Positions 12,152-31,724 of a stretch of DNA of 64,000 bases are shown here, one piece after another. The position numbers and the translations under genes were made by a program. This stretch comes from Methanoplanus sp. FWC-SCC4. GTDB taxonomy: Archaea > Halobacteriota > Methanomicrobia > Methanomicrobiales > Methanomicrobiaceae. Each line of letters opens with the position of its first letter. Positions within the stretch are counted from its first letter, which is position 1. Below the pieces are notes generated by a model. That model saw only the letters and a program-made list of their open reading frames with translations, searched no databases and was not told where the DNA came from. The DNA is taken from positions 1,232,370 to 1,296,369 of the forward strand of contig NZ_CP043875.1 in the NCBI RefSeq assembly GCF_032878975.1, given 5' to 3'.

Positions 12152-12574
12152 ATGACCATAAAACATCTTGAATCAATATTTAAGAAAAGTGAATTTGAAA
12201 AGGCAATAATTATTGCAATAATTATTGGGATTTGTATTGCAATACCTTTCATATATAATGCATTAAAAGGAGAAGACTATTCATCTCTTTATCTGCTTCC
12301 CGATTCATATACAAATTATCCTGAAGGATCAACTACCTCTTTTATTTATGGGGTGAAATCCTTTGAAAATGTAGAAACAAATTATGACCTTGAGATATTT
12401 ATTGGAGATATTTCTGTAAAAAAAACAAATATTATGATCAAACCCGGAGATACTTATGAAAAAAAAGAGACAATCAAAACAAAAAATTTAGTATATCCTA
12501 TAAAAGTCAGTATTTTTCTGAAATCACCTGATAATATATATAGTGTACATTACTGGTTAAAAAATTCTGATTAA
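12152..12574 (+). CDS. Membrane-tethered DUF1616 C-terminal-like protein
   Basis: The 140-residue protein has one N-terminal membrane segment (about 18-36) and an outside beta-sandwich. The outside part (LYLLPDSYTNYPEG, then SFIYGVKSFENVETNYDLEI and a final VHYWLKN) resembles the extracytoplasmic C-terminal half of DUF1616 proteins, which usually follows several membrane helices in one chain. Here that half stands alone, while a separate gene at 24.5-25.1 kb encodes only the membrane half of a DUF1616 protein. The ribosome binding site GGGGGAAGGG precedes the ATG. It converges with the flippase gene, with two bases between stops. The function of the family is unknown, but it occurs with archaeosortase and surface-glycan genes. 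Confidence 0.55.
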   Translation: MTIKHLESIFKKSEFEKAIIIAIIIGICIAIPFIYNALKGEDYSSLYLLPDSYTNYPEGSTTSFIYGVKSFENVETNYDLEIFIGDISVKKTNIMIKPGDTYEKKETIKTKNLVYPIKVSIFLKSPDNIYSVHYWLKNSD

Positions 12575-12576
12575 AA

Positions 12577-14001
12577 CTATTTTTTTGATTTGCCAAATAA
12601 ATCATAAATGAACTCTTTTTTAATATATCCGGTTTTCAAAGTCAATGCTGAAAATATAATTGCAGATAATAATAATCCAATTAATGCAGGGGGATTTAAG
12701 ATATACAATACTAAAGCTGTTGCTAAAGAAGAAATTATCAGCTTATCAATCATTATTAGAAGATTTTTTAAAGGTTCCAAATCTTTTGAGAATAAAATAG
12801 TAACTATCGCGAATAATATATATAATGAGGTACATGAAATATATGCCCCCAAAAATCCGTTTCCATACCCGTATTCTTTAAATAGAGCCATTAAAAATTC
12901 AGTCAGGAAGAAGAATAAAGGTAAAATCAAAAGCGGAATCAGAGTGTAAATGATATAATCCATTTTTTTATCAGCAAAAGACAGATTTAAACTGGCAAGA
13001 AAATTTTGAATGAATAAAAAGAGGTATCCTATAGCAAGGATAAAAATATAATCGGATGCTATGACATATTCAGCTGAAAAAAGAGTTTTTACAATAAATT
13101 CTGAATAAAAATAAAGTACAATTATCAAATAAAACATAAAAGAAAATAATCCCCTGCTTACATCTCCCAAACCCCCGTTTTTGTATATGTCTTCTTTTTT
13201 TGAGGTTGTTGCTTCAGGTACTGAAACATAGTTCATTGTACCCAATGAAAAAAGAAGAAGGGAAGCAAGTGTTAATGAAATATCATAATATCCCTGCCAT
13301 GTTACCCCCAGATTGTGACTTAAAACAATTTTTATTATACTTTGTCCAATTGTAGAAAATGAACTTACAACAAATAATGACAATCCAAAAGCAAATATTT
13401 TCTTAGAGGGAATTTTAATTGACTTTATCAATGCAAAAGACTTCCTGTGCTGCCTTGAAAATACTATAAATAATAAAGGAATTGCATTGGAGATGGCAAA
13501 AACAAATAATATAATCTCAAAGGAACAGATATCAGATAAAAATAATAATAAAATAACTATAAGTCTAACCATTGACGGCAGAGCCATAATAATACTTGGA
13601 ACCGAGTACATTTTTAATCCGGCAAAAAGTCCCTGAAAATCAATAATTATACTCATAAAAAACATTGAAACAACTATGACAGTATAGAAAAGCCATTTTT
13701 GTTCCAGCGGAAGATTTAGATAATCAAAAAAAACATCGCTTGAAAAAAATAATAAAACTGATATTATGATCATCAGAAAAATACTGCACACGAGTGTGAA
13801 ACCAAAATACTTTTTTCCCTCCTGGGAATGTGATAGCATATGATAAAAGTTAAGATTGGTTAATAACTGGAACATTCCGGGCAGTGATATTGCCACTAAT
13901 GTAATCAAACCATATTCATATGGTGTGATAGAATTTGCAAGAACTAATTTTGTCAGAACTCCGGCTCCTCTTTGGAGAATGAGTGAAAATATGAAGAGCA
14001 A
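12577..14001 (-). CDS. Polysaccharide flippase (Wzx/MATE-type, MOP superfamily)
   Basis: This 474-residue, almost fully hydrophobic protein has about 12-14 predicted membrane segments and the usual N-terminal pattern of Wzx-like exporters (RGAGVLTKLVLANSITPYEYG). Such proteins flip lipid-linked oligosaccharides across the membrane. The only standard start is TTG at 14001, without a ribosome binding site. The frame is open upstream and a strong GGGGGG box at 14038-14043 sits six bases before an in-frame ATC at 14034, exactly where other genes here have ATG. The real protein may start there (IRIKRTLTYYS...), either with a rare ATC start or a mutated one. It is the downstream end of the leftward glycan gene series. 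Confidence 0.8.
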   Translation of the reverse strand: MLFIFSLILQRGAGVLTKLVLANSITPYEYGLITLVAISLPGMFQLLTNLNFYHMLSHSQEGKKYFGFTLVCSIFLMIIISVLLFFSSDVFFDYLNLPLEQKWLFYTVIVVSMFFMSIIIDFQGLFAGLKMYSVPSIIMALPSMVRLIVILLLFLSDICSFEIILFVFAISNAIPLLFIVFSRQHRKSFALIKSIKIPSKKIFAFGLSLFVVSSFSTIGQSIIKIVLSHNLGVTWQGYYDISLTLASLLLFSLGTMNYVSVPEATTSKKEDIYKNGGLGDVSRGLFSFMFYLIIVLYFYSEFIVKTLFSAEYVIASDYIFILAIGYLFLFIQNFLASLNLSFADKKMDYIIYTLIPLLILPLFFFLTEFLMALFKEYGYGNGFLGAYISCTSLYILFAIVTILFSKDLEPLKNLLIMIDKLIISSLATALVLYILNPPALIGLLLSAIIFSALTLKTGYIKKEFIYDLFGKSKK

Positions 14002-14074
14002 AGAATAGTATGTAAGAGTTCTTTTGATTCTGATTGTATCCCCCCAAATATTAAGTTCAATAATTTAATAACAA

Positions 14075-14995
14075 TCATACTAATTGTTGATATATATATC
14101 TACAAATTATCTTTTTTAGAAATTGATCCACTTTTGATTCAATATTCATTAAAACCATTCCATCAACCCCATAATAAAAAAGATTATTATCTATAATTTC
14201 ATATTTTGGAAACATATTATGAGTATACAATTCGTATCTTTTTGAATCCTTTACAAAATATATTTCATCATTAAATTTAAAAATAGGACCAAGACTCTTT
14301 ACCCCTCTAATGAAATGATAGATTTGTTTTACACTGGCGGTATTGTCAATAATATAATCTGACATTTTTGGCTCAGGAGCTTCTTTTCCTTCAATATCCT
14401 GCCGGACTCTTACCACATTATCCTTAAAAATATTATTCAAAGCATCTATTGCCAAATCAGAACCAATTGTGGAAAGTGCTCTTCTTAGTTCTGAAATATC
14501 TTCTCCTTCTCTTAGAATGTGCTTTTTTTGCAGTATAATATCTCCCGTATCCGGCCTTTCATCAATATAGTGGATTGTTACACCGGTTTCATTTTCGCCA
14601 TTTTTTATAACCCAGAAATATGGATCAGCCCCCCTGTAATCAGGAAGTAAAGAGGGATGGTAATTAACTGCTCCAAAATTTGGAACATTAATCAAATTTT
14701 TTTTTAGAATCTGGTCAAAAATACAGCAGAATATAATATCCGGATTGAATGAGTTCATAAAATCAATAAAAGACAGGGAATTCACATCATTTATTTCAAT
14801 ATATGATATTGAATTCTGTCTTGAAATTTTCTTCAGATTATCTTTATTTCTTAAATGAATTCCTCTATAAAGATCTCTGAGTAAAGGTAAAAAATATCCT
14901 TTCTCTTTGCCCGATACAACAATCAGAATATTAAAATCGCTGGATATCAATTTTGATAAACATTCACAGGATGTAATGCTCCATTTTGTACCCAT
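14075..14995 (-). CDS. Formyltransferase-family protein (sugar or other N-formyltransferase)
   Basis: The 306-residue protein has the formyl_trans_N signature NYHPSLLPDYRGADPY (about residues 108-123). Farther on is GVTIHYIDERPDTGDIILQ (about 137-155), where the aspartate pairs with the earlier asparagine and histidine in the catalytic site. These enzymes transfer a formyl group from N10-formyltetrahydrofolate (or an archaeal equivalent) to an amino group. Archaea do not use formylmethionyl-tRNA, and the C-terminal half is unlike Fmt, so an amino-sugar substrate is more likely, in line with the glycan neighbourhood. The ORF begins at ATG 14995 with no clear ribosome binding site; part of the N-terminal Rossmann strand appears short, so the true start is uncertain. 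Confidence 0.7.
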   Translation of the reverse strand: MGTKWSITSCECLSKLISSDFNILIVVSGKEKGYFLPLLRDLYRGIHLRNKDNLKKISRQNSISYIEINDVNSLSFIDFMNSFNPDIIFCCIFDQILKKNLINVPNFGAVNYHPSLLPDYRGADPYFWVIKNGENETGVTIHYIDERPDTGDIILQKKHILREGEDISELRRALSTIGSDLAIDALNNIFKDNVVRVRQDIEGKEAPEPKMSDYIIDNTASVKQIYHFIRGVKSLGPIFKFNDEIYFVKDSKRYELYTHNMFPKYEIIDNNLFYYGVDGMVLMNIESKVDQFLKKIICRYIYQQLV

Positions 14996-15069
14996 GAATA
15001 TTATTGAATTATTTATTTAAATCACCCCCAACAACTAATAATTATATATTAATCCCAATAGTTTCCATT

Positions 15070-16092
15070 TTAAAAATAATGGTACATTTGATTATACATC
15101 TCATTTGCTTTTTTCATAATTTTATAATTATTTGAGGCATACTTCTCTGCATTATACCAAATGCCAATTTCCGGATTAAATTTTGATTTAAATTTTACCA
15201 ATCTTAAATCATCTCCGGAATCCATTTCTTCAAAATAATTCAGTCCTTTGCCACAGGCCCATTTTATTAATTCCCATTGAATCAAATCATTTGGGTATAT
15301 TCCTTTAAGCTCTGATTTGGGTACACCAACCCACATATAAATTAAATCCTCATAAATAATTGATATCATGCCTCCAACACTCTGATTATTATAACAGGCA
15401 ACAAAAATCTTCATATTATCCGGATAAAATTTATTATATAATTCATTAATATAATCCATATAGTCTGAAGGACGATAACCCTGTTCACGGTATCTGCGGG
15501 AAAGAGAATCAAGAATATACTCAAGATCATATCGATCACCATCTCTAACTGTTACCCCCTCTTTTATGCAATGATTTATGCTTACACGGAGTTTTCTATC
15601 AAATTCAGACCATATGCAATTAATTCCTTTTTTGAGATCCAGGCGATAAGTATAAACCGGCTCGATATCATAACCCGACCATTTGAAAGGCCTGGCATCT
15701 AATATACCGGGTGCTGAGCGAATACGGACATACTTGCATTTAATTTCAGAAAACAGGTATTTATCCACCTCATCCTGAATTTTCATTAAAACGCTTTCCT
15801 TTTTATGCTGCTTTAAATCATCATAACCGGGAATAACAGGGCCAAGGTAAAGAAGATATGAGCCGGGAGGCGGGGAAAACGCAACTTTTACAAAACCTTT
15901 TTTTTGTATGAATAAAGGATATAAAGCAGTTAGCTGGGAACCTTTGTAGATCATCAGAGGATATAATTTTCCTTTACCCTGTTCTTCAATGATTTTCAGC
16001 CAGTCCCATGTATGGAATATAGTACCATGATTTGAATCAAGAACCGCCTTGTTCCAGATTTCTTTATCATCTTTTGTTCCTATTCTAATCAT
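15070..16092 (-). CDS. FemAB-like GNAT-fold transferase, paralogue 1
   Basis: The 340-residue protein has the tandem-GNAT layout of FemAB/FemX and Acetyltransf_6 proteins. Recurrent family blocks are GTIFHTWDWLKI (23-34), AFSPPPGSYLLYLGPVIPGY (about 71-90), WSEFDRKLRVSINHCIKEGV near 160-180 and, near the end, the FKSKFNPE block. Bacterial FemAB enzymes add amino acids from aminoacyl-tRNA to peptidoglycan precursors, and related proteins occur in exosortase-linked exopolysaccharide loci. With no peptidoglycan expected here, an acyl or aminoacyl transfer to a surface glycan is the best guess. No ribosome binding site is visible. It is the last of three such genes in tandem. Confidence 0.75.
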   Translation of the reverse strand: MIRIGTKDDKEIWNKAVLDSNHGTIFHTWDWLKIIEEQGKGKLYPLMIYKGSQLTALYPLFIQKKGFVKVAFSPPPGSYLLYLGPVIPGYDDLKQHKKESVLMKIQDEVDKYLFSEIKCKYVRIRSAPGILDARPFKWSGYDIEPVYTYRLDLKKGINCIWSEFDRKLRVSINHCIKEGVTVRDGDRYDLEYILDSLSRRYREQGYRPSDYMDYINELYNKFYPDNMKIFVACYNNQSVGGMISIIYEDLIYMWVGVPKSELKGIYPNDLIQWELIKWACGKGLNYFEEMDSGDDLRLVKFKSKFNPEIGIWYNAEKYASNNYKIMKKANEMYNQMYHYF

Positions 16093-16124: not shown

Positions 16125-17150
16125 TTATAATATTTTTGACACCATTTCAGCAAATTTATAGATTTTTGATGAATGCTTTGATGCAGAATACCATATACAA
16201 AGCTCAGGGTTATATTTTGACTTAAAATATCTGAGCCTTTGATTCTCTCCGGAATCCATCTCTTCATAGTACTCAAAACCATTATTATATGCCCACTCAA
16301 TAGCTTCCCACTGAACTAAATCATTGGCGGATATTCCGGGAATATTGGATTTGGGTATACCCACCCAGAGATATAAAATATTTTTATAATATAATGAAAT
16401 CATACCTCCAACCCGTTCACCCTTATATTTTGCAACAAAAATTTTCATGTGATCTTTATGAAAAGTGGCATAAAGTGATTGAAGATATTTTTTGTGATCT
16501 AAAGGGCTGTACCCCTGCTGTATGAATCTTTCCGAGAGAGAATTTAATAAAAATTCAAGATCCTCCAAATCTCCATCCTCAACATAAACACCTTCTCTTT
16601 TTGCTTTATTTATGTCAACTCTCAGTTTACGATCAAATCCTTCCCAGACAGATTTGATACCTTTTGTGAGATCTATTCTATATGTATAAAGAGGATCTAC
16701 CACATAATCCTGCCATTTATATTGCCGTGAATCATAAAGACCAGGTGATGAACGTATACGAACATATTTACAGCCCATATCCGAAAAAAGATAACTGTCA
16801 ATTTTTTTCTGAACTTCATAAAAAAGACTTTCCTTCTTATTCTGCTTTAAATTCTCATAATTTATGAACACAGGGCCAAGATAGAGAAGATATGATCCGG
16901 ATGGTGGAGAAAAAGCCATCTTTAATGATTTATAATTTTTTATATAAACAGGACAAAGTGCGACAATCTGTGTACCGTTATAGACCATCAAAGGATAAAG
17001 AGTACTTTTAGAATACTTTTCTACAATCTTTAGCCATTCCCATTTATGAAATATTGTTCCATATGAAGAAGTATCTATAAGAGTATCCCACTTCATGGAT
17101 TCATCGTCACTTGAAATATTTATATTCAGATTCATCATTTTCAACAACAT
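16125..17150 (-). CDS. FemAB-like GNAT-fold transferase, paralogue 2
   Basis: This 341-residue paralogue is the closest relative of the gene just downstream. It shares GTIFHKWEWLKIVEKYSKST, the AFSPPSGSYLLYLGPVF block, YVRIRSSPGLYDSR, WEGFDRKLRVDINKAKREGV and YEEMDSGENQRLRYFKSKYN. The last block (MDSG...R...FKSKFNP) is strongly kept among copies 1, 2 and 4, suggesting an active-site role. The start is uncertain: ATG at 17150 is preceded by a weak GGATG-like box, and ATG codons at 17138 and 17135 are alternatives. Thirty-two bases separate it from paralogue 1. Substrate unknown; surface-glycan modification is inferred from the neighbours. Confidence 0.75.
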   Translation of the reverse strand: MLLKMMNLNINISSDDESMKWDTLIDTSSYGTIFHKWEWLKIVEKYSKSTLYPLMVYNGTQIVALCPVYIKNYKSLKMAFSPPSGSYLLYLGPVFINYENLKQNKKESLFYEVQKKIDSYLFSDMGCKYVRIRSSPGLYDSRQYKWQDYVVDPLYTYRIDLTKGIKSVWEGFDRKLRVDINKAKREGVYVEDGDLEDLEFLLNSLSERFIQQGYSPLDHKKYLQSLYATFHKDHMKIFVAKYKGERVGGMISLYYKNILYLWVGIPKSNIPGISANDLVQWEAIEWAYNNGFEYYEEMDSGENQRLRYFKSKYNPELCIWYSASKHSSKIYKFAEMVSKIL

Positions 17151-17210: not shown

Positions 17211-18260
17211 TTATTTTTTTATTTTAGAGCCGATAATTCCAGAAACAGGTTTTAGCACAGATACATATCCTTTTTCAGCAAAATTTGCTAATGCAGATGC
17301 CTTTTTTACATTAAATCTCAGTCGCAGATCAGGATCAAACTTTGAAAAGTGACTGTGAAGCCTTTGGTTTCCTGCTGTACCCATTCTTATATAGTGACAA
17401 ATATTTTTTTCAGATGCTTCTTTTATCTCTTCCCAGCTAAGTAATGAATTTGGTGAAGGAGAGAGATCAAAATAAGGTTTAGTACTGCCAATCCAGCTTA
17501 ATACTTCATCTTTATATTGCAGTTTAATACTACCAGTAACAATTTTTCCATCAAATTTAGCAACAGTAACTTTAACATTATCGCCAAATGAATCATATAT
17601 TTCATGCAAATACTCTTTTGGAAGTGATAACTGTCTATTTTGATCATCGTACCTTTTAACAAGAAGTGCATTTATTGCATCAATTTCTTCATGTTCACCT
17701 TCTTCGAGTATAACTCCCTGTTTTAAGGATTTTTTTACATCAACACGGATTTTTTTCTTAAAATTTTGCCATATCTGTTCTATACCGCAGGATAAATCAA
17801 TATGATAGTCATATGTCGGTTCTACTTCATAACCTGCCCATTTAAATGGACGTGGATCGGGAAGATTTGGTGGAAGAAAAATACTTATATAATTTGCACG
17901 CAGCTCCTGCTGAATAAATTTGTCCAGTTCATTCTGAAACTTTTCATAATAGATCTCTTTTTTATTTTGCTTCAAAGAGTCATAATCGACAAATACAGGC
18001 CCAAGATACATTATTCCTACATGAGGAGGAGGTGAAAAAACCATTCTCAATAATAATTTCTTTTTATAAAATAGTGGAAGAATAGCAATTGGTACTGTAT
18101 TATTATATCCAATAACCGGTATTAATCTGCAATCCGAATATTTCTCGGCAATTTTAAGCCATTTCATTGTATGGAATATTGAACCCTGAGGTGAAGACTC
18201 AACAATATTATCCCATAACTCAGTATCCTTCTCACTTGCAACTTTTAATATGATTTCCAT
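17211..18260 (-). CDS. FemAB-like GNAT-fold transferase, paralogue 3
   Basis: The 349-residue protein belongs to the same family (GSIFHTMKWLKIAEKYSDCR; VFSPPPHVGIMYLGPVFVDY; WQNFKKKIRVDVKKSLKQGV) but is the most diverged of the leftward three. Its C-terminal block reads MGTAGNQRLHSHFSKFDPDL instead of the MDSG form, so it may use a different acceptor or donor. The start is certain: GGGGGGATAA lies just before ATG 18260, and only two bases separate it from the stop of the polysaccharide deacetylase gene, so the two are probably co-transcribed and translationally coupled. Confidence 0.75.
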   Translation of the reverse strand: MEIILKVASEKDTELWDNIVESSPQGSIFHTMKWLKIAEKYSDCRLIPVIGYNNTVPIAILPLFYKKKLLLRMVFSPPPHVGIMYLGPVFVDYDSLKQNKKEIYYEKFQNELDKFIQQELRANYISIFLPPNLPDPRPFKWAGYEVEPTYDYHIDLSCGIEQIWQNFKKKIRVDVKKSLKQGVILEEGEHEEIDAINALLVKRYDDQNRQLSLPKEYLHEIYDSFGDNVKVTVAKFDGKIVTGSIKLQYKDEVLSWIGSTKPYFDLSPSPNSLLSWEEIKEASEKNICHYIRMGTAGNQRLHSHFSKFDPDLRLRFNVKKASALANFAEKGYVSVLKPVSGIIGSKIKK

Positions 18261-18262
18261 AT

Positions 18263-19858
18263 TTATCCCCCCAAGACTTCTAATTCAATAAATTCTCCAT
18301 GATATAATTTATCAGTTTGTATAGACACCATATTATTTTTTGACTTTAAAATCTTTGCATTGATTATATTTTTAAGACTCACATCATCAGGAAAATAAAT
18401 ATCAAAATAATGAACTTCATTTTCAGGAAATGGAAAGATTCGGATGGTATCTCCATCATATTCATAATCAAATGACGTTAATTCTCTCCATTTCCACCAT
18501 TCGTAAATCTCCTTTGCACTTGTCACCCAAGATTCCTTGTCATTGCAATATCTCACCACTCTTTTGTATTCATCGGCCCAGCCGGGAAACTCATAGTCAT
18601 TCAATACAGAATGGTGCCATAAAAGAGTGAGAACACCGCCAACTTCTTCAACTTCCTTTTCAATTTTTAAAAACTCGGACCATGGATCCTGAAATCTGAA
18701 ATAAGGCAGATCTTCAATAACAGTTGGTATCTCCAATAAATCCAGTTCACGATTTTCATCTTCATAAAAAGGTCTGAATGGGAAACATGAACCCCATCTA
18801 AAACCGAGATATTTGTTGGAACCCAGTGTGGTATCATATAATAAGCCTGCATTTTCATGAAAAATCCAGGTATTTGGAATTGTCAGATTCAAATTATGCT
18901 GTCTGCCACCAAAAATCCTGTTTCCAAGCACATTCTCAAGGGAATCCTTTTCATTTTTCAATAATTCCGGGTTATTATATGAATAAAAAGAGCCATGAAG
19001 ACCAACTTCCCAACCTTTTGAATGAATTTCACGAATCAGCTCTTTGATTTTAGGATCATTCCAGTCATAATTTCTCCCCGCATGCCTCCAGGTTGTTTTA
19101 TCCAGATATTTTATCCTGCCGGATTCATTCAGGAAATAAAAAGATGATTTTACATTGAGATTGCCCTCCATTTCCATAACCTTTTCAAACGTCCAGTAAG
19201 GTTCATAACCCTTAATCTTCTGTACGAATGAATAAAACTGATTTAAAAAACCGTTAAAATCCTTTTTTTTTACAAGTTTCAGTGGATGGGTTATCCATTG
19301 ATAGCTCTTTTTCACTTCATCAACGTCGTGTGTTAAACAGACAGCATATTTTTGCCCATTTTTCCATAAAGACTTTTTAATCAATGGCAAATTTGATTTC
19401 TGATGAGCATAAAGAAAAATATCAGATAATATTTTACAATAATAATCTACAAAAGGCAATCGGATCAGATTATTAATTTCATCTTCGTTATTTTCCCTGA
19501 ATCTTTCAAGATTTCCGGAGAGACAGAACCCTATATGCTCAAAAAGATCAAGACCTACATCAATTCTGTCTTCACCAAAAACAATACAGGGATATTGCCT
19601 GTTTTGTCCGGAATACATGAGACGATAATCACCGTCAGATAAAATTTCAGCAGGATATGAAAAAACAGGAATTTTTTTACTACGGTATATTATATGGCCT
19701 TCAATTTTATTTTTACATCCACCATCTTTATCGTCAATGAATTTATTTGCAGTAAACCATCTTTTAAGTTCATCCGGCTTAATTCCGGATTTTTCCGAGA
19801 AATATCTCTGACCATAAAGTGAATAATTACTTTCCAGAGTATCAATAAATATTTTCAC
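18263..19858 (-). CDS. Polysaccharide deacetylase (NodB-type) with N-terminal extension
   Basis: This 531-residue protein has about 170 N-terminal residues of unknown fold (DUF7033-like), then a NodB-type deacetylase domain. The metal motif is LTHDVDE (about 174-180), where the two aspartates and the histidine fit motif 1. GLHGSFYSYNN (about 293-303) and TLLWHHSVL (about 420) give later active-site blocks. A beta-sandwich tail follows. The family removes N- or O-acetyl groups from polysaccharides, and this type is common in exosortase-linked exopolysaccharide clusters. The start is GTG at 19858, supported by GGGGGGATAAGG. It is followed closely by FemAB-like paralogue 3 and preceded by the CapK-like gene, so an operon is likely. 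Confidence 0.82.
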   Translation of the reverse strand: MKIFIDTLESNYSLYGQRYFSEKSGIKPDELKRWFTANKFIDDKDGGCKNKIEGHIIYRSKKIPVFSYPAEILSDGDYRLMYSGQNRQYPCIVFGEDRIDVGLDLFEHIGFCLSGNLERFRENNEDEINNLIRLPFVDYYCKILSDIFLYAHQKSNLPLIKKSLWKNGQKYAVCLTHDVDEVKKSYQWITHPLKLVKKKDFNGFLNQFYSFVQKIKGYEPYWTFEKVMEMEGNLNVKSSFYFLNESGRIKYLDKTTWRHAGRNYDWNDPKIKELIREIHSKGWEVGLHGSFYSYNNPELLKNEKDSLENVLGNRIFGGRQHNLNLTIPNTWIFHENAGLLYDTTLGSNKYLGFRWGSCFPFRPFYEDENRELDLLEIPTVIEDLPYFRFQDPWSEFLKIEKEVEEVGGVLTLLWHHSVLNDYEFPGWADEYKRVVRYCNDKESWVTSAKEIYEWWKWRELTSFDYEYDGDTIRIFPFPENEVHYFDIYFPDDVSLKNIINAKILKSKNNMVSIQTDKLYHGEFIELEVLGG

Positions 19859-22288: not shown

Positions 22289-22291
22289 ATT

Positions 22292-22921
22292 TCATACCCC
22301 CAGTCTCATAACCCATTTAATTACTTCAAATGCCTCCGCATATTTTTCTTCAATCTGCGTCCCCCTTGTCAGAGCAAGCCCTCGTATGAAATTATCTGAT
22401 AAATATGACCTATCCTTTTGAGTTTCATAGCACTTTAGTGCCTCAATTTTTTTCTCCAAATGCTCTTCATTAAGAGAGATAAAAGCTAGCGTATTAAATG
22501 TAATATTGTTCCATGGCTGTTCATAGCCTAGTATGGTACATTGTTTAAATGCTCTTAAAGTCTCCTCCCGTGTTGTTTTATGATCCTGATGAGTATCATA
22601 AGTTGAAGGAGTGAATACCAGATCTGGTTTTATTTCATTTTTTAAACTGATCAGTACATCAAGAATCTCCTGCCTTAACCGTGGAAATTCCCGTACATCA
22701 AATCCATATAATATGGGTTCATCGATTCCCAGAACCTTTGTCGCTCTTTTAACCTCTGTCTTTAAAATATCCGGCGGACATTCTTTGGGAACAGACTTCT
22801 CACAACTTGATAATGCCACATAGCTGACATCATTTCCTTCTTCTACAAACCGTGCGATCGCCCCTCCGCACCCCAGTTCCCCATCATCTGTATGAGGACT
22901 TATTATCAATATTTTTTTCAT
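22292..22921 (-). CDS. PIG-L family de-N-acetylase (LmbE/BshB-like)
   Basis: The 209-residue protein has the zinc-binding opening ISPHTDDGELGCGG (residues 7-20) and the second metal block YDTHQDHKTT (about 108-117), as in LmbE/PIG-L and BshB/MshB enzymes. These remove the acetyl group from GlcNAc units of small glycosides or lipid-linked sugars. The start overlaps the stop of the upstream gene by four bases (ATGA) and follows GGGGGG. Pairing with the upstream BshC/WbqC-like protein recalls the BshB-BshC pair of bacillithiol synthesis, but the surrounding genes point as easily to deacetylation of a glycan building block. Confidence 0.85.
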   Translation of the reverse strand: MKKILIISPHTDDGELGCGGAIARFVEEGNDVSYVALSSCEKSVPKECPPDILKTEVKRATKVLGIDEPILYGFDVREFPRLRQEILDVLISLKNEIKPDLVFTPSTYDTHQDHKTTREETLRAFKQCTILGYEQPWNNITFNTLAFISLNEEHLEKKIEALKCYETQKDRSYLSDNFIRGLALTRGTQIEEKYAEAFEVIKWVMRLGV

Positions 22922-24486
22922 TCAAACCCCCCTAATGAAGATATATTGCGATGAATCAGACAGATATTCTCAGGTGAAATACCGGCCATAAAATCTGTCC
23001 CATAGCATACATCACTTATTATTGCATATGTGCCACTCTTCTCTATTGTTTCTATATCAGAAATTTCAACTGAATTCCTCCATTTTTCTTTAATACTACT
23101 CAAATCAGTACAGACCAATAAATCATAAAATGAAGGAACAGATGCAAAAGATTTCTGAATATTATATAGCATATTAATTAAATTGTTATACTTATACTCA
23201 ATTTTTTTAAAATCCTCTCCATTATTTTTTAAAAGTTGAATTTTATCACTGATATCGGAAGTAATGGAGGATATTTTATCATTTGTTGAATTGTCTAATA
23301 TATCTTTTATTTGAATTTTAAATGAATTTTTCAGAACACAAAGTGAGTAATAATGAACAGCTCCAATATAATAATCATTTGAGAACCAGGATAAAATTAC
23401 AGGGATGTTGTATTGAAAAGCTTTTAAGATTTCATGTGAGATTATTCCATATTCCAAAGAACCCCCTTTACCTGAAATATAAAGGCTTTCTCCCAATCCT
23501 TCTGAAAACACTATATCCCTCATGACAGCATTCAACCCCATTTTGTCATAATACTTTTCAACCCACTCATATTCACTTCCCAAAAAAAGATTATGTTTTT
23601 TACCACATGTTAGACACTCTCCAACAGAAGAATTATCTGCACCAGCAAATAATGGAATTTTCCTTCCACATTCACAGTGATACCAAAGTGGAATCTGAAA
23701 TTCAGCAGCTTTTTTAATATTCAACCCCCTACTTTCAATCGCATTATTATATACTCGATTATATTTCTCCAAATTTTGTAAAATCCACCTGCATTCATCA
23801 ACAAATAACTTTTCATTATGAATGTCCGAGTATCTAAAAAAATTTATATTCAAATCCAATATTTCCCTGCAAAATTTTGAATAGATAAAAGCATTAACAT
23901 CTGAGAAATTACCGGCTCGTTCATAGCTTTTCCAGAGCAATTCATCGATATCATCAATATTATTAGTCACTGTAGGAATTTTGGAATTATTTTTTTTTGC
24001 GTATTCGAGATAGTATTCCTTTATCCCATTAATTTCCTTTTCCCATAGATCGTGATCAGGTTTGTTTATTTTATTAAAACATTTCCAACTGGAATCCTTA
24101 CCAATATTAAACCCTATTTTCTTTTTCCCGGTTTTTTTAAAGCCGGGAATCTGATTCTGGTATAGAAGCGAGGCAGTTGATAAATTCTGGTCAAGAAATC
24201 CGTAAAGTGCAATAGCATCCCCTTTTTGCTCACCAATTTTTTCCCGAAACCAGTCCAAAAGAAATGCTTTTTTAAATGTACCCGGATATGGAATAAAATT
24301 TGGCTGATGGCTTGATTCAAGTACAATTGTATTTTTATCTATGACCAATGAATTATTTAGACCCAAATCTGCTTCTTCATGGAATTTATTTGAAATTTCA
24401 ACAATTTTATTAAGATTTCTCTCCTGATTTTCATTTAAACTATGATAAGTGGTCAAATCCTGAATCAAATCATTTTTTTTCATCAT
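22918..24486 (-). CDS. BshC/WbqC-like protein with zinc-ribbon insertion
   Basis: I do not firmly recognise this 522-residue protein. Near residues 57-72 it has SSHQPNFIPYPGTFKKA. This resembles the HQPxYLPWxGYFxK motif of WbqC-like O-antigen proteins and sits where BshC (bacillithiol cysteine-adding enzyme) has its GQQ motif. About residues 270-300 hold a likely zinc ribbon (CECGRK...CLTCGKK). The C-terminal third has a predicted helical, coiled-coil-like segment (about 405-445), also a feature of BshC. It is soluble, with no signal peptide. GGAGGATC precedes two adjacent ATG codons. It overlaps the upstream DUF1616 gene by 17 bases and the downstream PIG-L gene by four, so it belongs to the operon. 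Confidence 0.4.
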   Translation of the reverse strand: MMKKNDLIQDLTTYHSLNENQERNLNKIVEISNKFHEEADLGLNNSLVIDKNTIVLESSHQPNFIPYPGTFKKAFLLDWFREKIGEQKGDAIALYGFLDQNLSTASLLYQNQIPGFKKTGKKKIGFNIGKDSSWKCFNKINKPDHDLWEKEINGIKEYYLEYAKKNNSKIPTVTNNIDDIDELLWKSYERAGNFSDVNAFIYSKFCREILDLNINFFRYSDIHNEKLFVDECRWILQNLEKYNRVYNNAIESRGLNIKKAAEFQIPLWYHCECGRKIPLFAGADNSSVGECLTCGKKHNLFLGSEYEWVEKYYDKMGLNAVMRDIVFSEGLGESLYISGKGGSLEYGIISHEILKAFQYNIPVILSWFSNDYYIGAVHYYSLCVLKNSFKIQIKDILDNSTNDKISSITSDISDKIQLLKNNGEDFKKIEYKYNNLINMLYNIQKSFASVPSFYDLLVCTDLSSIKEKWRNSVEISDIETIEKSGTYAIISDVCYGTDFMAGISPENICLIHRNISSLGGFE

Positions 24487-25111
24487 GATCCTCCATTTTC
24501 AGATATTTGCCAATCCCTGATGTGGATTTTAATAAAGACCAACTTTTTAAATCTCTCTCTTTATGAGGGATATTGATGGGAATTTCATAAATTATACCCA
24601 TATTTTTTTTCCCATTTTCTTCTGAAATTTCGTTTTGACTCTTTTCATTAAATTCAGACATTTCGTCTTCATCAAGCTCAGATTTGCTGTCTTTTTGATC
24701 GGATTTTATTCCTTTCGTTATTTCAGGCTCTATTCTATCTCTGATTAATGAAATGTCAAAAGTCTCCATTCCCATTTTTCCATTTCTTTTTTGATCAAAA
24801 CGCCTTTTCAAAGAACTTTCAAGATATGATATCTCCAGTTTCCAAATTCCGGTAGCAATAGCCGTCAATAATAGAATCGTGATAAAAATATTTTCAGGAG
24901 TTGTATCTATACCAAGTATTATGTCAATAAAAAGAACTGACAAAATCACTGATACGATACTTAAAACAAAAGAAAATGCAATTCTCTCCAAAAATTCCCT
25001 TTCTTCTCTAATTGGAAATAATGCCCACGTGATAGCATAACCTGGAATGAATAATATTAATATCAGTCCAAAAATTGCCCTTAAAATACCCAATACATCC
25101 ATTTCATCCAT
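24470..25111 (-). CDS. DUF1616 family membrane protein (membrane half only)
   Basis: The 213-residue protein starts with the DUF1616 pattern: LRAIFGLILILFIPGYAITW (9-28), then ALFPIREEREFLERIAFSF. It has about four membrane segments in the first 100 residues. The remainder is a charged, low-complexity cytosolic tail rich in Asp, Glu, Lys and Ser. The usual DUF1616 outer beta-sandwich is missing; a free-standing version of that part is encoded at 12.2-12.6 kb. DUF1616 genes often accompany archaeosortase and surface-glycan loci, and the function is unknown. The start may be ATG 25111 or ATG 25102. It overlaps the next gene by 17 bases, which supports co-transcription. Confidence 0.7.
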   Translation of the reverse strand: MDEMDVLGILRAIFGLILILFIPGYAITWALFPIREEREFLERIAFSFVLSIVSVILSVLFIDIILGIDTTPENIFITILLLTAIATGIWKLEISYLESSLKRRFDQKRNGKMGMETFDISLIRDRIEPEITKGIKSDQKDSKSELDEDEMSEFNEKSQNEISEENGKKNMGIIYEIPINIPHKERDLKSWSLLKSTSGIGKYLKMEDHDEKK

Positions 25112-25152: not shown

Positions 25153-26145
25153 TTATCCTGGAACTGCAAAACCAATAATGCAAAATATTGCAGTCAAAAC
25201 ATACATGAAAGATGTTGCCTGCTTTTCAGTTAATCGGAAATAATATGGTAAAATCCATTTTAGTGTTAAAGGATTTGGAACTTCCAAAGTACCATCATCA
25301 CGTATTTTTCCGAATTTTACGAGCGGGTATTTTTTGCTGCTTAACCGCCAGTACACATATAAAAGGAAATTAACCGTGTGCGGTATTAAAATTATAAATC
25401 CACTAATCAAATATCCTTCAACAACTATTGCTGCACCAATTGCAGCCCCTACTGATAATGCACCAACATTCCCCCAGAATATACGTGAAGGATATCTCTC
25501 AAAAAGATAATAACCTGCAAGAGCACCGGCCATACTGACAATAAAAAGTATTTTACAGACATCTCCATGATATAATGCCTTTATTATCAAGGTTATGATT
25601 ATCATCAGGGATAAACCGGGTGCCAGACCATTGAAGCCGGAGTGCATATTAACCAGATTTGCCACAACCGGAACATAAAGAGGAATTATAATCTGAAGAG
25701 CAATTATACCAACAGTAAAAGTACCTATGAATGGAATACAACAATTTATATTATGAGGTATAAATGGCATCAATGAATAGGCACAATAGTATAAAAGTAT
25801 TAATTTTGCAGGTCTTCCAATATCAATTACATCATCAAGTATTCCAAAAAAAGCAAAAAGAGAAACAACTGTTATAATTGCATAATTAACATCTTCAATA
25901 TATCTGCTGTAAAATAAAGAGATAATTGATATTGACAATAGTGAAAGTAAAAGTATAACAAGACCTCCGTTTAATGCAACATCGGGAAGGTCTTTTTTGT
26001 ACATATCTTTTGAAACACATCCCTTATCCCTCAATTTATGAATAATATTTGGCATTGAAGCTAACATCATAAAAAATGGTACAAGGAAAAAAGTCAATAC
26101 CATAAAACCGAGTGAATTTACCAGTGTAGCCAGTTCATCTATCAA
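25153..26145 (-). CDS. GlcNAc-1-phosphate transferase-like (ALG7/AglH/WecA family)
   Basis: The 330-residue polytopic protein has the family blocks in order: KKDLPDVALNGG (about 50), GILDDVIDIG (about 96) with the paired aspartates, NLVNMHSGFNGLAPG (about 163-177), and FWGNVGALSVG (about 223). The third block, with histidine-serine in place of the bacterial aspartate, is nearer to eukaryotic ALG7 and archaeal AglH than to MraY. Such enzymes start a lipid-linked oligosaccharide by moving a HexNAc-phosphate to dolichyl phosphate. The start is TTG at 26145 without a ribosome binding site. A TATATATA block about 25 bases upstream suggests a leaderless transcript, and this would be the first gene of the leftward operon. 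Confidence 0.8.
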   Translation of the reverse strand: MIDELATLVNSLGFMVLTFFLVPFFMMLASMPNIIHKLRDKGCVSKDMYKKDLPDVALNGGLVILLLSLLSISIISLFYSRYIEDVNYAIITVVSLFAFFGILDDVIDIGRPAKLILLYYCAYSLMPFIPHNINCCIPFIGTFTVGIIALQIIIPLYVPVVANLVNMHSGFNGLAPGLSLMIIITLIIKALYHGDVCKILFIVSMAGALAGYYLFERYPSRIFWGNVGALSVGAAIGAAIVVEGYLISGFIILIPHTVNFLLYVYWRLSSKKYPLVKFGKIRDDGTLEVPNPLTLKWILPYYFRLTEKQATSFMYVLTAIFCIIGFAVPG

Positions 26146-26792: not shown

Positions 26793-27908
26793 ATGGCTTT
26801 TTACACAAAAGATGAAAGAGAAAAATATTATGGATATTACCTGTTATATGAAAAAATTTCAGACCTTAGCCTTAAAAAGAAGGTTTTAGTCGGATGTAAT
26901 CTGGCAACAAAAAAAATTGATGAAAAATTTAACAGGACAAACTTACTTTTTCGACCAACAGCAATTCAAATTGAGCCAACTACAAAATGTAATCTGAAAT
27001 GTAAATTTTGCTTATCACCGGTATGGGAAAGAAAAGGAAAAGATATGGATATTGGGGATTTCAAAAAAATTATTGATCAATTTCCTTTTCTTGTAAATGT
27101 ACTTCTACAAGGTGTTGGAGAACCTCTTATGTGTAAAGATTTTTTTAAGATGATTGAATATTGCCATCATAAAAAAATAAAGGTTGGTACTGTTACAAAT
27201 GGAACCCTTCTTGATAATGAAACCGTAAAAAAAATTTTGGATTCCAAAATTGAATGGCTGGCCATATCAATTGACGGATCAAAACCAGAAACTTTTGAGA
27301 ATATTCGTATTGGAGCAAATTTTAATCAGGTTATAAGCAATGTCTCAAATTTGATAAAGATGCGGGGGAACTCAAAAATACCCAGAATTCCAATACATTT
27401 TGTTGGAAATATAAATAATATGAATGAACTTCCCGGTGTTGTGCGTCTCGCAAAAAATATTGGTGCCGACGGAGTAGATATCGTTGGAATTAATTCATGG
27501 GGAGGTCAATATGAAAATGTTAAATCCATTAATCAGACTGAGAAATTAAAACAGGATGTTGCAGAAAAATATCTAAATGAGGCATCTGCACTGGCCAATG
27601 AAATTGGAATTACATTTGATGCTGTTGGAAAAGATGGGGGGTATATGTGGTACCAAAATGAAAATATTAAAAAAAATCCAATTCACTGCCAATTTATTTT
27701 TAAATCCTGTTTTATTACTGTTGAAGGTCACGTAACACCATGTACCAACTGGACAGATCGTGATAATATTGCCTTTGGAAATATTTTAAAAGAAGATTTC
27801 AATTCTATATGGAACTCTCAAAAAATTATCGAACTTAGAGATTCATATATTAGGGGAGAAATTCCTGAACCTTGTAGGGATTGCACTGAACCACATTTGG
27901 TTAGATAA
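26793..27908 (+). CDS. Radical SAM/SPASM domain protein
   Basis: The 371-residue protein carries the radical SAM cluster motif CNLKCKFC (about 67-74), which binds the 4Fe-4S cluster that cleaves S-adenosylmethionine. GVGEPL (about 108) and ISIDG (about 158) follow. The C-terminal SPASM-like region has further cysteines (CQFIFKSCF, TPCTNW, PCRDC) for auxiliary clusters. Related SPASM proteins modify peptides, proteins or sugars, so the substrate cannot be read from the sequence. No precursor peptide gene is visible next to it. GTGGGGG precedes the ATG. It is read away from the leftward glycan operon but lies inside the locus, so glycan or surface-protein modification is possible. Confidence 0.8.
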   Translation: MAFYTKDEREKYYGYYLLYEKISDLSLKKKVLVGCNLATKKIDEKFNRTNLLFRPTAIQIEPTTKCNLKCKFCLSPVWERKGKDMDIGDFKKIIDQFPFLVNVLLQGVGEPLMCKDFFKMIEYCHHKKIKVGTVTNGTLLDNETVKKILDSKIEWLAISIDGSKPETFENIRIGANFNQVISNVSNLIKMRGNSKIPRIPIHFVGNINNMNELPGVVRLAKNIGADGVDIVGINSWGGQYENVKSINQTEKLKQDVAEKYLNEASALANEIGITFDAVGKDGGYMWYQNENIKKNPIHCQFIFKSCFITVEGHVTPCTNWTDRDNIAFGNILKEDFNSIWNSQKIIELRDSYIRGEIPEPCRDCTEPHLVR

Positions 27909-28192
27909 ATTCATAATTCACTAATTTTTTTACTAAATCTGCAAAATCAGAATTATTTCAAGAATTTGTACATTTATATTGTTTACAGGCGCCGGCAATA
28001 TATTTATAATATCAGCCAAAATCACCTAAAATGTTCCAATATAACTCAGTATTGTCCCTGCATTTGGAAAAGCAGCTGAATAATATAAAATAATTCAGGG
28101 AACAAAACAAAGGTTTGCGGATTATACATGAGGATGTATACAGCGGGTATATTTGAGAAAAAGAAGAACGGATTTTTAGCAAATTGCGGAGC

Positions 28193-29212
28193 TCATTTCA
28201 TTTTTTTAGCCAGATACTTTGCAGATTTATAGATTGTTGATTTATTTTTTATCATCATATGGTATGGATATAAGTCAGGATTGAATTTGGATTTAAATCG
28301 TCTTAAACGACGATTATCCCCGCCATCCATCTGATCCAAATATAAAAAACCATTATTGTATGCCCATTTTATTGATTCCCAATAAATAATTTCATTTGCC
28401 GATATGCCTTTAAGATCTGATTTAGGCACTCCAATCCAAAAGTATACTATATTGCTAAAATAAAGCAAAACAACCCCCCCTATCAGATTCTCGTTATATT
28501 CTGCCATGAATATTTTCATATTTTTTCCATAAAATTCATCATATAGATCAGATAAATAATTCCAGTTATCCAGTTTTTTTACTTTCTTTTTCTGATCCTG
28601 AAAACGTATACTTAACAATTCGTAAATATATTTTAAATCGCTCTTGTCTCCGTCTTTTATTTTAATTCCCTTTTTATACATAGCGTTGATCATCTTTCTT
28701 ACAGGTCTGTTAAATTGATTCCATAATGAATCAAAACCATTTGACAGGTCAAGACGATATGTATATGATGGATTTACCTGATATCCAGCCCACTGATATG
28801 GTCTTGAGTCTTTCAAACCAGGAGACGAATTAATTCTGACATAATTACAACCAAGTTTTGAAAAAATATAATTATCAGTTTCTCTCTGAATTTCCAGAAG
28901 ATAAGTCTCCCTTTTACTTTGTTTTAATGATTCATAATCAGGAATTACAGGACCGAGATACAAAAGAAATGTCCTGTCAGGCGGAGATACTGCCTCCTTT
29001 AAAAAAATTGATTTTCTGTAAAAAATCGGAAAAACAGATACAAGGGTTTCACCTCTATTGATTATCAAAGGAAACAAAGTATAATTAGTATTTTTTTCAA
29101 CGATTTTCAGCCATTTCCAGGTGTGAAATATTGAGCCATGAGCAGATGAATTAACAGCATTATTCCAAAGATCAACCATATTTTCATCTGCAATCTGAAG
29201 ATTAAAACTCAT
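28193..29212 (-). CDS. FemAB-like GNAT-fold transferase, paralogue 4
   Basis: The 339-residue member of the same family as the three tandem copies has GSIFHTWKWLKIVEKNTNYT, SPPDRTFLLYLGPVIPDY, YVRINSSPGLKDSRPYQWAG and MDGGDNRRLRRFKSKFNPDL. The last block is closest to copies 1 and 2. One change from the others is PVRKMINAMYKKG in place of the KLRV...KEG block. A TATA-like ATTATAATATATT lies about 25 bases upstream of the ATG, with no ribosome binding site, suggesting a leaderless transcript. It stands alone, just downstream of the archaeosortase gene on the same strand. Confidence 0.75.
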   Translation of the reverse strand: MSFNLQIADENMVDLWNNAVNSSAHGSIFHTWKWLKIVEKNTNYTLFPLIINRGETLVSVFPIFYRKSIFLKEAVSPPDRTFLLYLGPVIPDYESLKQSKRETYLLEIQRETDNYIFSKLGCNYVRINSSPGLKDSRPYQWAGYQVNPSYTYRLDLSNGFDSLWNQFNRPVRKMINAMYKKGIKIKDGDKSDLKYIYELLSIRFQDQKKKVKKLDNWNYLSDLYDEFYGKNMKIFMAEYNENLIGGVVLLYFSNIVYFWIGVPKSDLKGISANEIIYWESIKWAYNNGFLYLDQMDGGDNRRLRRFKSKFNPDLYPYHMMIKNKSTIYKSAKYLAKKMK

Positions 29213-29409
29213 ACCAATACCAATATATTATAATTATTTTTAGGAACCTATCAATCTCAATACTACTTTACTGTATATAGCATTTTTTGAGATATAAAAA
29301 TATAAAAGAAAAAAACATTCAATATTATAAAAGTCACCAATCACAATTAAGGATGTAATATATCCAATCCAATTATATATTTATCTCCTGAATTAGGAGA
29401 TTCTTCTCT

Positions 29410-30327
29410 CTAAATATATTTATCTGAACTGGTTTCACTAATAGAATAATGAAGATGATGCCTAAAGAAATAATACCAAAAGACAATCATCCATATGGTA
29501 AAAAGAATCCACCCGATATGAACATGAACATGTTCGATTACTCCTTTAGGCCCATACAAATATCCACTCAGTGATATAAGCGTAATTCGTCCAATATTTG
29601 AGATATATGTCCCTATATATCCAATAAAAATTAGAAGTGCACTTTTCTTAGAAATTGCTTCAGGAAATGTAAAAAGTACTATTATTGCTGCAATTGTAAA
29701 TGTCCCAAGTGACCAGATCCCAGTACAGTCAGTTACTATGGCAAGATAAATATGCTCACCTGATGTAGATAAAAAAGAGATTATATTTCCATCGATTTCC
29801 GGATTAATTCCAATAATATTCAAAACCAAATTCGTGAAATATATAGTAGGTGGTATAAGAGGTTCAATTATCCACTCCTGATTCCTTAAAAATAGTTCAT
29901 ATATTTCAAATCCAAAAACAGCAAGCAAAGGAAATAATGCAGGAATAATAAGCTTTTTTAATTTAAGCAGACTGAAAATAATAATACTAATTCCTGAAAG
30001 TAAAATTGAAAATTCTCCAATAGAATAAGGAGGATTTCCAAGGCCTAAGGGTATATTCAAAAAACTGAATAGGCAGACAAATATCCCCCCCATAAGATAT
30101 AGTTTCTGTTTCCCATGATCAATTATGCTTTGTTCCTTTCTCGAAAGATATATCATCGAAACACAGGATAGTGCCCAGATAATTATTGCATCCATTTTCA
30201 AATAAGTCAGAGTTGTAAATATAAAATAAAGCGTTAAACTAGTTAATACGGAAATTACCCATATCCATGCAGCCTTTTCTGGTGATATTTCCCTCAAGTG
30301 CATAATTTTCATATTTTCAGATTCCAA
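29410..30327 (-). CDS. artC: Archaeosortase/exosortase family transpeptidase (probably class C)
   Basis: The roughly 300-residue polytopic membrane protein has about seven to eight predicted helices. The exosortase triad appears in the expected order in the last third: cysteine in VTDCTGIWSLGTF (about 199-211), arginine in ISNIGRITLI (about 244-253), and histidine in the VHIGWILF segment (about 270). Archaeosortases cut C-terminal sorting signals and are thought to join the protein to a membrane anchor. The class C assignment is inferred from the PEF-CTERM-like protein at 4.2-5.1 kb. The frame opens at a TTG (30327), but ATG at 30312 or 30303 is the likelier start. It shares a divergent promoter region with FemAB-like copy 5. 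Confidence 0.75.
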   Translation of the reverse strand: MESENMKIMHLREISPEKAAWIWVISVLTSLTLYFIFTTLTYLKMDAIIIWALSCVSMIYLSRKEQSIIDHGKQKLYLMGGIFVCLFSFLNIPLGLGNPPYSIGEFSILLSGISIIIFSLLKLKKLIIPALFPLLAVFGFEIYELFLRNQEWIIEPLIPPTIYFTNLVLNIIGINPEIDGNIISFLSTSGEHIYLAIVTDCTGIWSLGTFTIAAIIVLFTFPEAISKKSALLIFIGYIGTYISNIGRITLISLSGYLYGPKGVIEHVHVHIGWILFTIWMIVFWYYFFRHHLHYSISETSSDKYI

Positions 30328-30698
30328 AAATATTAACCTTATTAAATGAACACTTTCTTAAATCATTTTTGAATGCTACAAATACAACACCGCACTATAA
30401 AAAATTATTTATACATATGGGGCAATTAGAAACCAGGGTTGTGTTATCTAAAAAAGGTCTAACTAGCTATTCAATTTTAAAATGTTTAATTCAAAATCTT
30501 ATAATTCTTATTTCATGAGTATAAAACTCATTTAAAGTATAACATTTTCCAAATCTAAAAAAAATTGTTTAAAATTTAATCTTTTTCATATATTTAAGAC
30601 TCTTTGATAATTATGAACTAAATATATATATTATAAATTTTCATATCCTAGTGCATTCAAAATATATTTTTTATCATTAATACAGAGGGGGATTTATA
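30328..30698. other. Divergent promoter region of archaeosortase and FemAB-like copy 5
   Basis: The 371 bases hold a TATA-rich block (30621-30637) serving the rightward gene and a hairpin ATGAGT-ataaa-ACTCAT (30515-30531). The ribosome binding site GAGGGGG lies just before the ATG at 30699. No gene is visible. Confidence 0.5.
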
Positions 30699-31724
30699 AT
30701 GGAAATTAAAATAGCAAATGAGGAGGATAAGACAAAATGGGACGATTTGATTTTATTTTCAGAAAACGGGACACTCTACCATACGTGGGACTGGCTTAAG
30801 TTAATGGAAAAACATTCAACTAAAAAAATTTTTTCGCATCGCCTTAAAGCAACTTTGTATCCCATTATGGTTTTTGACGGATCTTCGTTATATGGTGTAA
30901 TTCCATTATATCTATACAAAATTCTGTCAGTCAAATTCGTAGCTTCGCCCCCCCCTGGTGTTGAAAACAAATATCTGGGACCTGTCATTCAAAATAATGA
31001 TAAAATAAAACTTCACAATAAATATTCAAAATTTATTAAATTTCAAAATCAAATTGATTATTTTATAAAAAATACATTAAAATCAAATATTGTAAATATC
31101 GATCTACCACCTTACCCTCAGGATCCAAGATCTTTTATCTGGAGCGGATACAGTGTTGAACCCCGCCATACAAACATAATCGATTTAAAAAAGAGGGAAA
31201 CTGAGATCTGGAACAATTTTAACAAAAAATTACGCAATGAGATAAAAAAAGCTCATAATGAAGGAATCATAGTTGAAGAGGGAACAAAAGAACACATTGA
31301 TTTTATTTATACTACTATGTCTGAAAATCAAAGAATATATTCTTCTAAAGAATTTATTCAAGAAATATATGATGTTTTTTACCCTGAAAATTTAAAAATA
31401 TTTGTTGCCAAGAAGGACAACAAAGTTCTAAGTGGACTTATAATAACAAACTATAAAAATAAAGTTGATGCCTGGATAGGAACACCAAAAGTATCGTACA
31501 AAGGCATAAGTCCAAACCCTTTAATTCACTGGGCATGTATTCAGTGGGCATGCACAAATAAATATAATTTTTATGAAATTATCGATGCTGACAATCCTAA
31601 TTTTTTTAGATTTAAAAATAAATTTAATTCTGAACTAATACACTATTATTCAATGAGATGGTACTCACCAAAAATCAGAATCAGTAAAGGTATATATAGG
31701 GCAATTAAACCCAGGTATAAATGA
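30699..31724 (+). CDS. FemAB-like GNAT-fold transferase, paralogue 5
   Basis: The 341-residue, most diverged family member is the only one on the plus strand. It keeps GTLYHTWDWLKLMEKHSTKK, ASPPPGVENKYLGPVI, DPRSFIWSGYSVEPRHT, WNNFNKKLRNEIKKAHNEG and FKNKFNSEL. It has a short insertion after the WLKL block and shows IDADNPNFFRFKNKF where others have MDSG...R. The loss of the arginine and glycine residues there suggests a changed substrate or reduced activity. The start at 30699 is certain from GAGGGGG. It is read away from the archaeosortase gene and converges with the giant propeller gene. Confidence 0.72.
   Translation: MEIKIANEEDKTKWDDLILFSENGTLYHTWDWLKLMEKHSTKKIFSHRLKATLYPIMVFDGSSLYGVIPLYLYKILSVKFVASPPPGVENKYLGPVIQNNDKIKLHNKYSKFIKFQNQIDYFIKNTLKSNIVNIDLPPYPQDPRSFIWSGYSVEPRHTNIIDLKKRETEIWNNFNKKLRNEIKKAHNEGIIVEEGTKEHIDFIYTTMSENQRIYSSKEFIQEIYDVFYPENLKIFVAKKDNKVLSGLIITNYKNKVDAWIGTPKVSYKGISPNPLIHWACIQWACTNKYNFYEIIDADNPNFFRFKNKFNSELIHYYSMRWYSPKIRISKGIYRAIKPRYK

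Follow-up and report, generated by a model that had tools for sequence, protein, structure and literature searches.

We know of no established acceptor for the exosortases or for most archaeosortases. Archaeosortase A (ArtA) has been proposed to use archaetidylethanolamine as its amine acceptor, and in Methanosarcina artA is located near pssA and pssD (PMC7157517). In Porphyromonas, VimE and VimA, the latter a FemAB-like protein that matches TIGR03019, have been proposed to make a 2-N-seryl or glycyl sugar that is amide-bonded to sorted proteins; the authors of the linking-sugar work speculated that bacterial exosortase loci might act likewise, none having been tested (PMC7468200). Here we describe a locus in which an archaeosortase gene (29410-30327) lies among genes for FemAB-like transferases, deacetylases and glycan assembly. 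It is found in a stretch of 64,000 nucleotides of the Methanoplanus sp. FWC-SCC4 genome (contig NZ_CP043875.1, positions 1,232,370 to 1,296,369), hereafter the window, with positions counted from its first letter.

The association of this gene set with one sortase lineage is well supported. We hold with moderate confidence that the locus is the operating locus of an ArtC-related archaeosortase, together with the genes that make the acceptor of its clients, an amine-bearing lipid-linked sugar. The initial annotation regarded it as the archaeal counterpart of a bacterial exosortase/exopolysaccharide locus. The likeness holds for function and gene content, since both have an enzyme of the exosortase family in the neighbourhood of FemAB-like, deacetylase and CapK-like genes, but every protein stays below the cut-offs of the bacterial PEP-CTERM equivalog models (XrtA 33.9 bits against 208, TIGR03019 51-57 bits against 260) and there is no Wzz or bacterial initiating sugar transferase among the window proteins scanned. 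The Wbp/Vim system of Porphyromonas gingivalis (PMC7468200) has in common with the locus a VimE-like deacetylase beside a TIGR03019-like transferase, genomic Wbp homologues and sorted surface proteins; the window differs in having an archaeosortase rather than PorU, an archaeal membrane and no lipopolysaccharide, in an additional PIG-L/BshC-like pair, and in scores that lie under the cut-offs. The Methanosarcina arrangement of ArtA with PssA/PssD (PMC7157517) is similar in that the sortase gene adjoins genes for synthesis of an amine acceptor, although the acceptor there is a lipid head group and for the window an amino-acid-bearing sugar is proposed. As far as the literature searched shows (the archaeosortase paper of Haft et al. 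2012 lies outside it), the conserved ArtC-clade locus, its VimE-like and BshC-like pairs and the companion client are undescribed, and no paper in that literature mentions an archaeosortase together with FemAB.

The archaeosortase and its conserved companions

The sortase scores 43.7 bits on TIGR04178 (cut-off 23) and 73 bits on PF09721 (cut-off 25.7), which places it in the superfamily. Cys201, Arg247, His268 and His270 are invariant in an alignment of nine sequences. The nearest named NCBI model is ArtC (TIGR03762), on which it reaches 52.9 bits, short of the cut-off of 100. It has no match to the ArtA model (TIGR04125); scores of 282-292 bits on that model were obtained for two ArtA-like sequences of the same order. 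A tree built from 66 sequences unites the window sortase and its Methanomicrobiales relatives (class A) in a single clade (99/91), whose sister group is a pair of Altiarchaeota sequences (99/95); ArtC (92/60) and ArtA stand apart. Judged by sequence, the window sortase is an unnamed subfamily and not archaeosortase A. It shares with the ArtC/PEF-CTERM systems (TIGR03762, TIGR03024) the sortase fold and residues and the PEF-type clients, and ArtC loci of two families (f8 and f9) likewise have neighbouring deacetylase, FemAB and DUF354 genes; it differs in its ArtC score and in forming its own clade with the Altiarchaeota sister group.

Class A is present in 10 of 149 Methanomicrobiales genomes, and these come from four families. 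Other PF09721 matches in these 149 genomes are mostly weaker, and those tested are ArtA. The source genome itself has two PF09721 matches, the second of which groups with ArtA in the tree; its gene (L048:9030-9671) adjoins a CDP-alcohol phosphotransferase. A pairing of this ArtA-type gene with PssA was considered and rejected, the best model of the neighbour being archaetidylinositol phosphate synthase. One class A locus (L053, DSDU01000217.1) is labelled Deltaproteobacteria; it is nested among methanogen sequences in the tree and is probably misbinned.

The accompanying set was counted as present where at least three of six families (FemAB, deacetylase, DUF354, PIG-L, BshC-like, CapK) lie near the sortase. 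Eight of nine class A and Altiarchaeota loci, counted on contigs of at least 12 kb, carry it, as do 9 of 17 ArtC loci, but none of 14 ArtA loci and none of 13 loci of other archaeosortases (Fisher test of class A and ArtC combined against ArtA combined with the other lineages, 5e-7, a value that ignores the relatedness of the genomes). Of the 10 Methanomicrobiales genomes with class A, 8 have an orthologue of the NodB-type deacetylase (at least 270 bits), as against 0 of the 139 others; within the window's own family the figures are 7/7 and 0/18. The gene association is not chance, because the orthologues are distributed 8/10 against 0/139. The co-occurrence with archaeosortase that the initial annotation expected across the order was thus found for class A in Methanomicrobiaceae, for the related Altiarchaeota sortases and for many ArtC loci; it does not extend to ArtA and the other archaeosortase lineages.

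Gene order is conserved as well. Four relatives (G031, G041, G108 and G025) keep the order GT4, DUF1616, 522-residue protein, PIG-L, DUF354, NodB, FemAB, flippase and sortase, with ATP-grasp and hexapeptide genes inserted in most of these loci and a PEF protein preceding the sortase in G031, G025 and G108. The same arrangement is found in G046 on a contig of 12.6 kb. The window differs from its relatives in that the sortase has been relocated upstream of GT4. In Altiarchaeota locus L062, genes for GT4, the sortase, a UDP-sugar dehydrogenase, a deacetylase, FemAB, DUF354 and CapK are consecutive. ArtC proteins exceed the model cut-off in 41 of 296 genomes of a phylum survey; most of the set is present in all five f9 loci examined, and deacetylase, FemAB and DUF354 genes are present in three of four f8 loci. 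Archaeosortases with 40-65 bits on ArtC (families f7, f8, f10 and f32) were tried as members of the group and rejected; none carries the set.

Gene content, enzyme pairs and client

The genes of the locus, with the basis of each assignment, are as follows.

440-1363, minus strand: Gfo/Idh/MocA oxidoreductase, homologue of UDP-N-acetylglucosamine 3-dehydrogenase, WbpB-like (NF040723 161 bits, cut-off 450)
3047-3826, minus: UppP/BacA-like polyprenyl-diphosphate phosphatase (NF001398 139 bits)
4241-5137, plus: probable client, secreted, with PEF motif, hydrophobic stretch and basic tail (P-E-F invariant, 10 aligned)
5913-9692, minus: 1259-residue multi-membrane protein with an extracellular half, GT-C-like by eye (conserved near the sortase in relatives)
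12152-12574, plus: 140-residue protein, weak match to the DUF1616 C-terminal half (PF07760 E 0.0047, profile 157-238)
12577-14001, minus: flippase, Polysacc_synt (PF01943 38 bits; conserved)
14075-14995, minus: sugar-amine formyltransferase family (PF00551 98 bits; NYHPS and PDYRG motifs)
15070-16092, minus: FemAB-like transferase 1 (TIGR03019 54.5 bits)
16125-17150, minus: FemAB-like transferase 2 (TIGR03019 56.8 bits)
17211-18260, minus: FemAB-like transferase 3, adjacent to the NodB gene and the deacetylase's partner in all complete loci (TIGR03019 51.5 bits)
18263-19858, minus: NodB/CE4-type deacetylase, VimE-like (NF053580 80.6 bits, E 8.7e-23, cut-off 440)
19881-21227, minus: CapK/PaaK-like ligase, adenosine monophosphate (AMP)-forming (NF045666 147 bits, cut-off 300)
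21209-22288, minus: DUF354, glycosyltransferase-like (PF04007 71 bits)
22292-22921, minus: PIG-L deacetylase, best model BshB1 (TIGR04001 72 bits, cut-off 182.5; PHTDD and HQDH motifs)
22918-24486, minus: 522-residue protein, apparently a BshC-like amino-acid ligase (AlphaFold2 model with Foldseek match to BshC 4wbd)
24470-25111, minus: DUF1616 N-terminal half (PF07760 47 bits, profile 21-114)
25153-26145, minus: GT4/ALG7/MraY-type polyprenyl-phosphate sugar-1-phosphate transferase (PF00953 85 bits)
26793-27908, plus: radical SAM/SPASM protein, not seen in the loci of relatives (PF04055 76 bits, PF13186 51 bits)
28193-29212, minus: FemAB-like transferase 4 (TIGR03019 52.8 bits)
29410-30327, minus: archaeosortase, unnamed subfamily (PF09721 73 bits; ArtC model 52.9 bits, cut-off 100)
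30699-31724, plus: FemAB-like transferase 5 (TIGR03019 57 bits)

All of the genes named in the initial annotation are present where it had placed them, as profile matches of the window proteins; the five FemAB-like proteins also match PF13480 and PF02388. The conserved neighbourhood is wider than the 12152-31724 interval first delimited, adding the PEF-CTERM protein, UppP, the GT-C-like protein and the 3-dehydrogenase homologue. UppP is kept in G108, G124, G025 and two ArtC loci, and the GT-C-like membrane protein is near the sortase in G108, G124, G025, G031, G041 and G093; a predicted structure of its first 700 residues was unusable, with a predicted local distance difference test (pLDDT) score of 44. 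The 140-residue protein is conserved in class A and ArtC loci, and the CapK/PaaK-like ligase has homologues in Altiarchaeota and ArtC loci. Coupling by several four-base overlaps had been reported. As called, the sole exact one is that of PIG-L and the 522-residue protein (22918-22921); taking the second Met of CapK as its start would make the CapK/DUF354 overlap four bases too, and the genes of the 522-residue protein and DUF1616 overlap by 17 bases.

The locus seems to hold two pairs of enzymes that deacetylate and then aminoacylate, VimE-like/FemAB and PIG-L/BshC-like. VimE is the only NCBIfam match of the NodB-type protein, and the same is true of its counterparts in ArtC loci; its 80.6 bits fall below the score that defines VimE. 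The PIG-L protein, whose gene overlaps that of the 522-residue protein, has BshB1 as its best model, also below the cut-off. The 522-residue protein has no Pfam match up to E 10 and no NCBIfam match, and a PDB sequence search with its family gave nothing meaningful. An N-terminal motif had suggested BshC before modelling. The AlphaFold2 model (pLDDT 83, predicted template modelling score 0.85) has BshC 4wbd as its best Foldseek match (E 6.5e-13, template modelling score 0.57-0.59), followed by class I lysyl-tRNA synthetase. On the strength of this model, the protein seems to be a BshC-like amino-acid ligase. The likeness to bacillithiol BshB/BshC lies in the best model of PIG-L and the fold of the 522-residue protein; the differences are that the latter matches no family by sequence, has a four-Cys motif and sits in a membrane glycan locus.

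Homologues of WbpA, WbpB, WbpD and WbpE are all encoded in the genome. WbpD-E-A homologues form one operon, in which there is no 3-dehydrogenase; window gene 440-1363 is a homologue of WbpB in the complete operon of G025, and the orthologues closest to it (64-69% identity) all come from class A genomes, where they lie beside the locus. That operon (L070:1782-10453) is apparently complete and Wbp/Vim-like, with WbpD, E, B, A and I followed by a VimE-like protein and FemAB, and has no class A sortase near it. A second apparently complete Wbp/Vim-like operon (G077, L074:3098-10806) likewise lies away from any class A archaeosortase.

The protein encoded at 4241-5137 carries a signal peptide and a conserved domain and ends in VPEFPTIAVSLAIIIGFMSVIYMGRERIVKK. 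An alignment of ten homologues, drawn from class A and ArtC loci, shows P-E-F unchanged throughout and the remaining tail variable; homologues sit beside the sortase in loci of both kinds. The window protein is probably the client of the sortase. TIGR03024 detects it weakly (14.9 bits), and a local profile of the tail, A3, was therefore used. At E 1e-6, A3 matches proteins in 9 of 10 class A genomes and in 6 of 139 others; G093 alone has 20 PEF-CTERM matches. The source genome has one protein over the TIGR03024 cut-off and four matches to A3, and further PEF proteins are encoded elsewhere in it (for example L095:3279-4208). Proteins with P-E-L or P-E-F ends are also found near family f10 archaeosortases of another lineage (L140, L142, L143 and L147; also L141 and L146). 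The motif is followed by a hydrophobic stretch and basic residues, as in VPELSTIILFSLGLLALYICVGMRRKS; these may be a further sortase/signal pair.

Proposed mechanism and alternatives

From the gene content, conservation, client co-distribution and fold match described above, we infer the substrates, the order of steps and the acceptor role in the following scheme. The GT4 enzyme would charge a polyprenyl carrier with a GlcNAc-type sugar phosphate, which DUF354 and other enzymes would extend, with UppP recycling the carrier. A Wbp-type pathway (the 3-dehydrogenase at 440-1363 and other steps elsewhere in the genome) would supply a 2,3-diamino uronic acid. The VimE-like deacetylase would free an amine to which a FemAB-like protein would add an amino acid, and PIG-L with the BshC-like ligase would carry out the same chemistry on another amino sugar. 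The flippase would turn the product outward, where the archaeosortase would cut PEF-CTERM proteins at the PEF motif and pass them to the free amine. The end product would be a protein joined through an amide bond to a surface glycan or glycolipid.

The initial annotation proposed a system that builds a polymer and anchors sorted proteins in it. This is supported in part; the two deacetylase/aminoacyl-ligase pairs suggest a sugar bearing an amino acid as the likely acceptor. More tentatively, ArtC-clade sortases may hand their clients to an amino sugar that bears an amino acid and sits on a polyprenyl or glycolipid carrier, the product of two unrelated pairs of this kind, and archaea and Bacteroidetes may have reached the same handle with unrelated sortases. 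The archaeal loci have a Porphyromonas-type enzyme pair and a BshB/BshC-like pair beside a sortase and a dedicated client. If the acceptor reading is true, it makes specific predictions for the mass and chemistry of client C-termini; should f8 prove to be Methanosarcinaceae, as reports on ArtC suggest, methanogens amenable to genetics could serve to test them.

Several observations weigh against the proposal that the locus makes the acceptor of its sortase. Nearly all family assignments are below curated cut-offs (VimE 80.6/440, TIGR03019 51-57/260, ArtC 52.9/100, BshB1 72/182.5). ArtC loci of families f10, f18 and f28 are mostly without the set, which one of eight carries. FemAB matches (E 1e-10 or better) occur in 67 and NodB matches in 60 of the 149 genomes, most being more distant paralogues, often side by side. 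NodB/FemAB relatives are found in about 50 genomes without a class A sortase, some in full Wbp operons; the families are therefore not exclusive to sorting, and such pairs may serve general glycan decoration. The paralogous pairs outside sortase loci indicate that deacetylase/FemAB is a general module of which the sortase loci use particular orthologues. Several PEF-positive genomes are without a detected class A sortase, and since A3 is seeded partly from class A loci, the negative genomes weigh more than the positive ones. Finally, a second 3-dehydrogenase homologue is encoded elsewhere in the genome, which makes the pairing of 440-1363 with WbpD-E-A likely and not exclusive.

We consider it possible, if doubtful, that the genes build an aminoacylated surface polysaccharide with which PEF-CTERM proteins associate, as first proposed for bacterial PEP-CTERM, the polymer not being the acceptor of the sortase. 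The gene classes match those of bacterial exopolysaccharide-associated sorting loci (PMC1569441), and the FemAB/NodB modules without class A sortase show this chemistry in use elsewhere. The lack of Wzz and of a bacterial initiating transferase among the scanned proteins argues against this reading, as does the tight linkage of specific orthologues and one client to the sortase, which goes beyond the needs of a loose association.

It seems unlikely to us that the product of the cluster is an N-glycan or S-layer glycan, with the archaeosortase as a bystander. A GT4/ALG7-like initiator, a flippase and a large GT-C-like protein are present, and archaeal N-glycans (Methanococcus) hold amino-acid-bearing diamino uronic acids. 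However, the association is confined to the class A lineage and ArtC, ArtA loci of the same order lacking it, and no oligosaccharyltransferase match was found among the scanned proteins. It is very unlikely that the locus is a low-GC (guanine plus cytosine) island of surface genes, transferred together without functional coupling: GC is about 0.31 over the locus against 0.43-0.45 rightward and the spread across families is patchy, but the core order is kept in relatives and the set follows one sortase lineage and client motif, not other sortases. Least probable of all is a role of PIG-L and the BshC-like protein in the synthesis of a soluble thiol of bacillithiol type that has nothing to do with sorting, as the BshB1-type model and BshC fold might suggest, since no BshA-type malate glycosyltransferase was identified and the two accompany the sortase, GT4 and the deacetylase across ArtC and class A loci.

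Neighbouring genes

Relatives of the locus encode, beside UppP, a secreted protein of about 900 residues (L066:9419-12112, with relatives in L067 and L068) that gives weak matches to DUF4962 and heparinase-like families; a similarity search did not find it in the window. Immediately to the left of the window lie genes for two AMP-binding enzymes (L063:15447-17321 and 17591-19462), each with a fused N-terminal domain of DNA-binding type, HTH_17 in one and a weak ribbon-helix-helix in the other. A clostripain-family (C11) protease with a lipoprotein-like N-terminus is encoded at 46235-48142. To the right of the sorting locus, 31772-37312 encodes an 1846-residue LVIVD-repeat protein with two near-identical halves; the gene has about 45% GC, compared with 31% for the sorting locus, and a shorter relative of the protein is encoded at 9862-11886.

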